Positions 1,826-22,328 of a stretch of DNA of 64,000 nucleotides are shown in pieces. The translations under genes and the position numbers were made by a program. The notes below the pieces were generated by a model. The model worked only from the letters and a program-made list of their open reading frames with translations. It was not told where the DNA came from and searched no databases. The DNA is taken from NCBI RefSeq assembly GCF_029229925.1, contig NZ_CP107254.1, forward strand, positions 2,728,001-2,792,000, given 5' to 3'. Every line of letters begins with the position of its first letter. The stretch's first letter is position 1. The DNA comes from Halorhabdus sp. BNX81. GTDB taxonomy: Archaea > Halobacteriota > Halobacteria > Halobacteriales > Haloarculaceae.

Positions 1826-2001
1826 ACGCGCGCTTGTCCGCCCGCATACAAGACGGTTGCCCCAACAACTTCGAAATCCTCGGTCCGAAATCGATCTGAA
1901 GCAGGAATCCGAAACAGTATTCCACAAGCAGTATCGAATCCGAGGGAGCAACTGGATGTATTCTCTCCCCCTGAAAGTCGATTGATTCGGACAGTAAGGA
2001 G

Positions 2002-2077
2002 AGCCAAGGGCCGGATTTGAACCGGCGATGGGCGGCTCTGCAGGCCGCTGCGTTAGGCCGGACTCTGCCACCTTGGC
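2002..2077 (-). tRNA. tRNA-Cys (anticodon GCA)
   Basis: A complete cloverleaf can be folded: 7-bp acceptor stem GCCAAGG/CCTTGGC, anticodon arm GCGGC-CTGCAGA-GCCGC with anticodon GCA, and T arm GCCGG-TTCAAAT-CCGGC. No intron. The discriminator base is U and CCA is not encoded. Haloarchaeal rrn operons usually carry tRNA-Cys after 5S, which fits this position. A strong terminator and a protein gene on the opposite strand separate it from 5S here, so it probably has its own promoter. Confidence 0.97.
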
Positions 2078-2097: not shown

Positions 2098-2251
2098 GGC
2101 CAAGTTATGGATTGTGATCCGGCCGTTTCGCCCAAACGGGCGATGGGCGGCTGTCGCACGTGATGAAAGAACGTGCGACGCTGACAGACGAACGAAGTGA
2201 GTCTGTCTGAACTGCAGGCCGCTGCGTTAGGCCGGACTCTGCCACCTTGGC
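2098..2251 (-). pseudogene. Second tRNA-Cys copy with a 59-nt insert at position 37/38 and an 18-nt insert before the T arm
   Basis: The first ~37 tRNA positions (acceptor 5' strand, D arm, 5' anticodon stem, GCA anticodon, G37) are identical to the intact tRNA-Cys. A 59-nt block (2153-2211) then interrupts the anticodon loop exactly between positions 37 and 38, the canonical archaeal intron site. The block contains a 7-bp hairpin (GACAGAC/GTCTGTC) and a 9-bp hairpin (GTCGCACGT/ACGTGCGAC). The 3' exon resumes with A-GCCGC and CCATC, is interrupted by 18 nt containing GCCC-GTTT-GGGC, then continues as GCCGG, a T loop altered from TTCAAAT to ATCACAA, an unpaired 3' T strand, and CTTGGC. The broken T arm argues for a pseudogene; an intron-bearing atypical tRNA is the alternative. 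Confidence 0.72.
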
Positions 2252-2751: not shown

Positions 2752-2874
2752 TGGAGGCGGCGAACCGATTTTCCCAGAGACTCTCGTACTCCAGTACTCG
2801 CCGGAACGCAGGCGGGCTTAACTTCCGTGTTCGGAATGGGTACGGGTGTTGCCCCGCCGCTATGGCCGCCTTAA
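2752..2874 (-). rRNA. rrf: 5S ribosomal RNA
   Basis: About 123 nt. Begins TTAAGGCGGCCATAGCGG and ends GTTCGCCGCCTCC, so the 5' and 3' ends pair (GGCGGC with GCCGCC). It contains the conserved CCCGTACCCATTCCGAACAC core. Ends are estimated to within a few bases. Confidence 0.96.
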
Positions 2875-21198: not shown

Positions 21199-22245
21199 CT
21201 ATGGCGTCAGTCGCCCGACTTCGAGCCACTCGATTCGGGGGTCGCCGTCCGCGTCAGCCTCCGCCACCAGCGCGAACACCATCCGCTTTCGAACGCCGTG
21301 GGCCAGTCGGACGTCAAGCGCGAGATCGCGCGGCGTGAAAGCGTGATTCGCCGGTAACACCCGCACGAGCAACTCGGAGTGGCCCAGCGAGTCGACGGTC
21401 TCGACGTCGGCGTACGTCCGGAAATCAGCGCCGAACTTGTAGCCCGTCTTGGGCACGACGCCACGCTCGCGGAGTGCCCGATAGACCGCGAGGCGACGGT
21501 CGAAGCGCTCGCCCTCGACCTCGCGACCGCACTCGACGATCGCGTCCGCACCGCCCTCGACGTCGAGCACGCCTTGGCGGGCCAACGCGGCGGCCTCGAT
21601 CAGCGAGAGCTGGATGGGCTCGCCCGTCTCGTCGTCGAGCGGTTGGCCGTAGAACCCCTCGTGGTAGAGTGCTTCTGGCGGGTCCCAGACCAGGACTCGG
21701 TCGCCCAGCAGGTCGGCCGCGACCCCGGTCGACAGGTCGACCGTCGTCGAGCCGTCGATCTCGGGGTGGCCCGTTTCGAGATAGGTGATCGCCGACTCCT
21801 CGTCGACGACTGCCAGGACGCTATCGCCCAGCGTGGCCGCGGAGACGGCCGTCCGCTCACTTATCGCCCGGATCCGATAGGCGACATCGTCGTCCCAGGG
21901 CCCCTGTCCACGCGGGTAGACAACGAAGTCGGCCCCCGCTGGATCGTCGACCCAGCCCTCGCGGGCGGGCGAGAGGTAGAACCCCCGATCCCGGAGGTCC
22001 TTGTAGACTAAGACGGCGATCTCCGAGACGGCGGCCGAGGAAACGAGCGTCCGGAAGTCCAACGCATCGCCGGTTGTGGCATCCCGGACGTGTTCGACGT
22101 CACCCCGGTAGAGAAGATGGGCGGCCTCGACCGGTGCCAACACCAGCCCGCCGGCCTCGACATGACCGTACCCACGGGAGTCATAGAAGCGCTCGCGAGC
22201 CTCGCTACCCCCGCGGACCACGTCTCCCTCACGGACCAGTTCCAT
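21199..22245 (-). CDS. endA: tRNA-splicing endonuclease
   Basis: Cuts bulge-helix-bulge motifs in pre-tRNA and pre-rRNA. 348 residues, i.e. the fused two-unit form found in haloarchaea, which dimerises. The C-terminal catalytic unit shows the Tyr-His-Lys triad region: KFGADFRTY (Tyr), GHSELLVRVLP (His), GVRKRMVFAL (Lys). The N-terminal unit (YDSRGYGHVEAGGLVLAPVEAAHLL) is the degenerate repeat. Start chosen at MELVREGD; the longer frame is less likely. It lies 83 nt downstream of the NucS-like gene on the same strand. Confidence 0.94.
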   Translation of the reverse strand: MELVREGDVVRGGSEARERFYDSRGYGHVEAGGLVLAPVEAAHLLYRGDVEHVRDATTGDALDFRTLVSSAAVSEIAVLVYKDLRDRGFYLSPAREGWVDDPAGADFVVYPRGQGPWDDDVAYRIRAISERTAVSAATLGDSVLAVVDEESAITYLETGHPEIDGSTTVDLSTGVAADLLGDRVLVWDPPEALYHEGFYGQPLDDETGEPIQLSLIEAAALARQGVLDVEGGADAIVECGREVEGERFDRRLAVYRALRERGVVPKTGYKFGADFRTYADVETVDSLGHSELLVRVLPANHAFTPRDLALDVRLAHGVRKRMVFALVAEADADGDPRIEWLEVGRLTP

Positions 22246-22328
22246 GGTCTGACCTGCCGGCGGGCGGGCAAAGGCGCTACGGTCCAAGCCCACAGCGGCC
22301 GGTCGAAGGGAAACGGCCCATCGCCGTG

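Follow-up and report, generated by a model that had tools for sequence, protein, structure and literature searches.

The window analysed here, a stretch of 64,000 nucleotides from the 2.83-Mb chromosome of Halorhabdus sp. BNX81 (genome G000), carries a truncated tRNA-Cys gene split exactly between tRNA positions 37 and 38 by a 59-nt insert. This locus is probably a leftover partial duplicate of tRNA-Cys, comprising positions 1–51, whose anticodon loop was interrupted by a two-hairpin repeat that inserts at loop edges. The rRNA operon lies on the minus strand in the order 16S, tRNA-Ala, 23S and 5S (2752..2873, minus strand; Rfam RF00001), followed by the partial copy and then by the genome's only intact tRNA-Cys(GCA) (2001..2077, minus strand; ARAGORN and Infernal). 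All further features of the copy are on the same strand. It starts behind a promoter, P1 (2252..2296; GACCGCTATGTTTATTGG), assigned by its match to the tRNA-Cys promoter of the relative G006. The first segment (2212..2251) shows 0 differences from the intact gene; the identity reported in the initial annotation thus holds, with a length of 40 nt covering positions 1–37 instead of 37 bases. Then comes the insert (2153..2211), which folds into two hairpins of 7 and 9 bp, as had been described. Neither of its ends can be shifted, given that its first base T differs from A38 and its last base C differs from G37, and the junction shows no target duplication. The copy resumes (2139..2152) with A38-GCCGC and positions 44–51, corresponding to A38, the 3′ strand of the anticodon stem, the variable loop and GCC. 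It departs from the tRNA sequence at position 51, and at about position 51–53 in most genomes. In the place of the T arm, RNA folding yields a third small hairpin (2119..2138), where G004, G001 and G027 hold a different one. Some folds also showed long-range pairing of the D loop with the sequence preceding the second promoter, a helix too weak to claim.

Promoter comparison showed that the copy retains the old tRNA-Cys promoter, P1, and that the working gene downstream has its own promoter, P2 (2078..2122). Over 50 nt, P1 matches the promoter of the sole intact tRNA-Cys in G006 without a difference, and over 400 nt the identity is 99%. P2 was assigned by aligning, in register, the P2 regions with the single-copy tRNA-Cys promoters of relatives; CATAACTTGGC within P2 aligns with the TATA regions of those promoters (CATAAATCG, CATAAGCC and others), equally far from the start of the tRNA. 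The stretch once read as a degenerate T arm with a retained CTTGGC acceptor strand is therefore P2 with its TATA region. CTTGGC occurs at that place in only two of the eight distinct copies (G000 and G004) and is missing from the other six.

Among 445 haloarchaeal genomes, eight, which belong to three families (f1, f10 and f12), were found to have a copy with an insert at the same site, a pattern-based count that copies too diverged for the patterns would escape. Besides G000, the carriers are G004, G001, G027, G011, G058, G070 (Salinarchaeum laminariae) and G127, and in all eight the copy sits immediately upstream of an intact tRNA-Cys. This recurrence agrees with the earlier view that the placement is not random. 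A pattern scan of contigs returned two records only, from Halorhabdus amylolytica and S. laminariae. In Halorhabdus and G027 the copy is linked to the rRNA operon; in the other carriers, the stretches examined showed no rRNA beside it. G011 and G001 carry an extra module of the T-loop type (CCG-hairpin-CGACCTTCGC-hairpin) at 37/38. Comparison with relatives, as proposed in the initial annotation, also gave a genome without the copy: G006, a close relative with 99% identity across 400 nt upstream, carries a single intact tRNA-Cys behind P1. Loss via recombination between the 40-nt repeats and original absence would both give this state. In S. laminariae, a second and more decayed tandem copy unit with its own promoter lies upstream of the copy (L063). 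Downstream of tRNA-Cys, genomes of many genera share a conserved stretch (ACCCTAAAGCCCAAGACGAC..GTCTTGG; L003, L006, L008, L023, L024, L027 and L031) with differing upstream regions, which is possibly an integration border. Another such border possibly exists in two distant genomes (L009 and L030), in which a common TTGTAAC..GTTACACAA-like palindrome directly follows tRNA-Cys.

The insert itself belongs to a dispersed haloarchaeal repeat family, with relatives of like architecture near the 3′ edge of seven-nucleotide loops in partial tRNA copies. A covariance model of the 59-nt insert, termed R1, matched 143 of 392 genomes at a threshold of E ≤ 0.01, versus about 4 expected by chance. G000 has seven matches, and within the window the insert is the only strong one (84.4 bits). 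Several matches away from tRNA-Cys also lie within partial tRNA copies, such as L156, which reads GGTTCAAA, then TTCCG...GGGAC, then TCCCAGC. A scan of G000 further revealed two-hairpin inserts of 50–55 nt interrupting the 3′ copies of six other tRNAs, at position 60 in Gly, Ala, Asp and Glu, at 61–62 in Arg and at 62–63 in Gln. The junctions of the two-hairpin inserts in G000 share 0–3 nt, none for Cys and 1–3 nt for the six other tRNAs. In G058, seven 3′ copies start at position 58 or later, six of them at 60, and four of these six are preceded by two clear hairpins ending in GCTCAG. The anticodon loop (32–38) and the T loop (54–60) both have seven bases; therefore 37/38 and 59/60 correspond to each other, both adjoining the last base of the loop. 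The stems of different repeats have little sequence in common, and some of the repeats may be alike in design rather than descent. The R1-type and GCTCAG-type repeats appear to be related, judging from their shared architecture and some shared sequence.

Like PATE-type members of the IS200/IS605 group, the insert has no target duplication, subterminal hairpins at both ends and no coding capacity. We do not claim membership of that group, because a search of G000 for a Y1 transposase (PF01797) found none, control genomes being positive, and no fixed target word of 4–6 nt was seen by eye 5′ of the inserts, whose flanks differ (GCAG, CAAA, GAAT, GAAC and TCAC immediately before the insert). IS200/IS605 mobilization within G000 was rejected on the same transposase search. 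We tentatively propose, as a somewhat less than even chance, that haloarchaea carry undescribed, gene-free two-hairpin elements of about 50–60 nt that insert at the 3′ edge of seven-nucleotide stem-loops, and that haloarchaeal tRNA genes are systematically accompanied by partial self-copies on which these elements land. Two-hairpin repeats matching R1 also occur inside an apparent coding region, at the same place in several genera and as if inserted in frame (L145, L149, L150, L160 and L166); by eye, this region looks UvrA-like. Some others lie between GAAAGCCCC and CCCCTTTCAGTC (L144, L147, L154, L155 and L161), so that a larger repeat unit is possible.

Defining a 3′ self-copy as an exact copy, of at least 12 nt, of a gene's own 3′ end within 800 nt downstream, we found one behind 22 of the 41 tRNA genes of G000, and none upstream. 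The same applies to 11 of 30 tRNA genes in G058 and 9 of 30 in the distant G056, which represent two other families. These copies begin at positions 50–53, or at 58–62 when interrupted, and the interval that separates them from the gene usually holds a hairpin plus the T arm of that tRNA in inverted orientation. Behind many tRNA genes (L096–L136 in G000, L167–L196 in G058 and L197–L226 in G056) follow one to three units, in each of which a hairpin and the inverted T arm are joined by a conserved GTCGCAG..ACCGTC hairpin and a 3′-end copy in direct orientation. The 12-mer GAACGAAGTGAG occurs 17 times in G000, versus 0 for the reversed control, and many occurrences are hairpin apexes beside tRNA genes. 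In a search that covered the subscription literature sparsely, we found no publication describing such 3′ self-copies for haloarchaeal tRNA genes.

These observations enable us to propose a putative course of events. The tRNA-Cys duplicate would have arisen by recombination in the T arm and been left beside the gene, as suggested by the 5′ copies ending at about 51–53 and the 3′ copies elsewhere starting at 50–53. The repeat would enter hairpin loops while the DNA is single-stranded, and only redundant tRNA copies would tolerate it; lineages that retained the spare copy would also have retained its structure. Judging from promoter identity and gene order only, the copy may be transcribed from P1 as a structured leader of tRNA-Cys of about 170 nt, from which RNase P would free the tRNA at the intact gene. 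Several points argue against this reading: the structure is preserved better than plain decay would allow, with changes on both sides in 7 of 18 pairs; eight genomes of three families retain it at one site; the stems of different repeats have little sequence in common; and neither a mobilizing enzyme was found in G000 nor a conserved target word seen.

The duplicate might alternatively be the scar of an integrative element, which is possible, though not our favoured origin. Here an element that brought along a complete tRNA-Cys and its promoter would have split the host tRNA-Cys at about 51/52, leaving the 5′ piece upstream and the 3′ piece downstream of the intact gene, and the hairpins would have come later. 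As expected of an integration fragment, the locus does have an incomplete tRNA-Cys copy next to the complete tRNA-Cys gene. The matching end points of the 5′ and 3′ copies are also consistent with such a split, as is the flanking of the intact gene by 5′ and 3′ pieces in G011, G058 and S. laminariae, and imperfectly in G027. Furthermore, Caldiarchaeum offers a known case of an integration that left the 5′ fragment of a tRNA upstream (PMC3293823). However, only about 60–70 nt separate the end of the 5′ piece from the intact gene, with neither an integrase gene nor an element between them, and in most tRNAs the 3′ pieces stand alone. A scar is compatible with the leftover duplicate interrupted by a repeat, as it concerns only the origin of the duplicate.

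A functional structured RNA gene, composed of the tRNA-Cys 5′ half and two selected hairpins, transcribed from P1 and serving for example as a leader or decoy for tRNA-Cys, seems unlikely. In its favour stands strong covariation. In an alignment of the eight distinct copies, which are related by descent and from which loops were removed by hand to give gap-free helices, 96.5% of the cells pair; both sides changed in 7 of 18 pairs, with covariation in both hairpins, a result matched by 0 of 500 shuffles. The copies thus display a covarying secondary structure of the kind expected of a structured non-coding RNA. Because the copies are related, this counts as supporting evidence and falls short of proof, and DNA-level processes can also keep hairpins perfect. 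An RNA gene would moreover fit the intact P1 of G000, identical to a working promoter, the separate promoter of the second tandem unit in S. laminariae, and the 5′ half that is identical to the local tRNA in five of the eight copies. Against it, the arrangement occurs in only 8 of 445 genomes and was lost or never gained in G006, the TATA region of P1 is altered in G001 (CATAAATCG to CCTCACTCG), and G001 and G011 have a disrupted anticodon stem. Similar perfect hairpins also occur at many sites without tRNA 5′ halves, so pairing alone is no proof of RNA function.

That the copy is, or once was, a tRNA-Cys with an intron that EndA splices at 37/38 is highly improbable. Position 37/38 is the commonest archaeal tRNA intron site, the insert junction falls exactly there, and EndA, with two pairs of domains, is indeed encoded in the window where the initial annotation placed it (21199–22293). 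We scored by script the hBHBh′ geometry, a 4-bp central helix with 3-nt bulges at both splice sites. The bulge-helix-bulge search that the annotation had recommended found no perfect motif anywhere in the G000 copy: at 37/38, the central helix forms one of four pairs in seven of the eight distinct copies, including that of G000, and three of four in G027, being complete in none. In the same window, the pre-16S (7837/6206) and pre-23S (5934/2947) sites scored a perfect 8/4/8 and were among the script's three top hits; two tRNA introns from other haloarchaea (30–32-nt insert, anticodon loop CTCAT) were likewise perfect, the controls giving 4/4/4 or 8/4/8. Removal of the insert would not leave a complete tRNA either, as the 3′ half is missing and only a small hairpin and P2 lie beyond position 51. 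Haloferax EndA strictly requires hBHBh′ (PMC7714728), so the idea that the copy is an EndA substrate fails together with that of an intron, both being rejected by a scan whose positive controls passed. A dispersed two-hairpin repeat, of a kind also seen at the T-loop edges of other partial tRNA copies, accounts better than an intron for the insert at 37/38. Pure chance decay is rejected on recurrence in three families and on covariation.

The interpretation offered in the initial annotation is thus partly supported. Its non-random placement holds; of its three suggestions, the intron-bearing tRNA and the EndA substrate fail, and a tRNA-derived RNA is possible, though unlikely. Nor is the copy a case of mere random decay, because the helices covary across families. 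An insert exactly at the tRNA intron site need not be an intron, which makes such loci a trap for intron annotation. The locus also offers a concrete path for tRNA gene disruption and points to a genome-wide haloarchaeal pattern, in which partial copies of a tRNA gene's 3′ end follow the gene and hairpin repeats sit at loop edges. Breakage and re-use of archaeal tRNA genes thereby become testable in culturable species.

Dispersed paired hairpins are familiar from REP/BIME repeats and Rickettsia palindromic elements, which occupy intergenic and possibly coding DNA. Compared with these, the present repeats are archaeal, their stems vary strongly among copies, and no RAYT-type (Y1) transposase was found. 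The Cys copy resembles archaeal pre-tRNA introns, which carry a bulge-helix-bulge and are cut by EndA (as in Haloferax tRNA-Trp, tRNA-Met and tRNA-Gln), in having its insert exactly at 37/38; unlike them, it lacks the motif and the tRNA 3′ half, and has two closed hairpins in place of an exon-intron helix. The closest known repeats are the gene-free elements of Haloquadratum, namely PATEs, SMR-A repeats and IS605-type elements, among which SMR-A elements insert within palindromes (PMC3119063). They are similarly short and gene-free, with hairpins and no target duplication, whereas our repeats are about 50–60 nt long, consist of two hairpins, lie at the 3′ edge of tRNA loops and lack the terminal inverted repeats of SMR-A. 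The closest precedent for a 5′ tRNA piece ahead of a complete gene whose own upstream region differs comes from Caldiarchaeum, in which a tRNA-Thr 5′ fragment lies upstream of intact tRNA-Thr (PMC3293823). The Caldiarchaeum pieces are at least 1.8 kb apart and come with a recombinase gene, whereas the gene-free gap of about 60–70 nt at tRNA-Cys follows a copy that additionally carries a hairpin insert.
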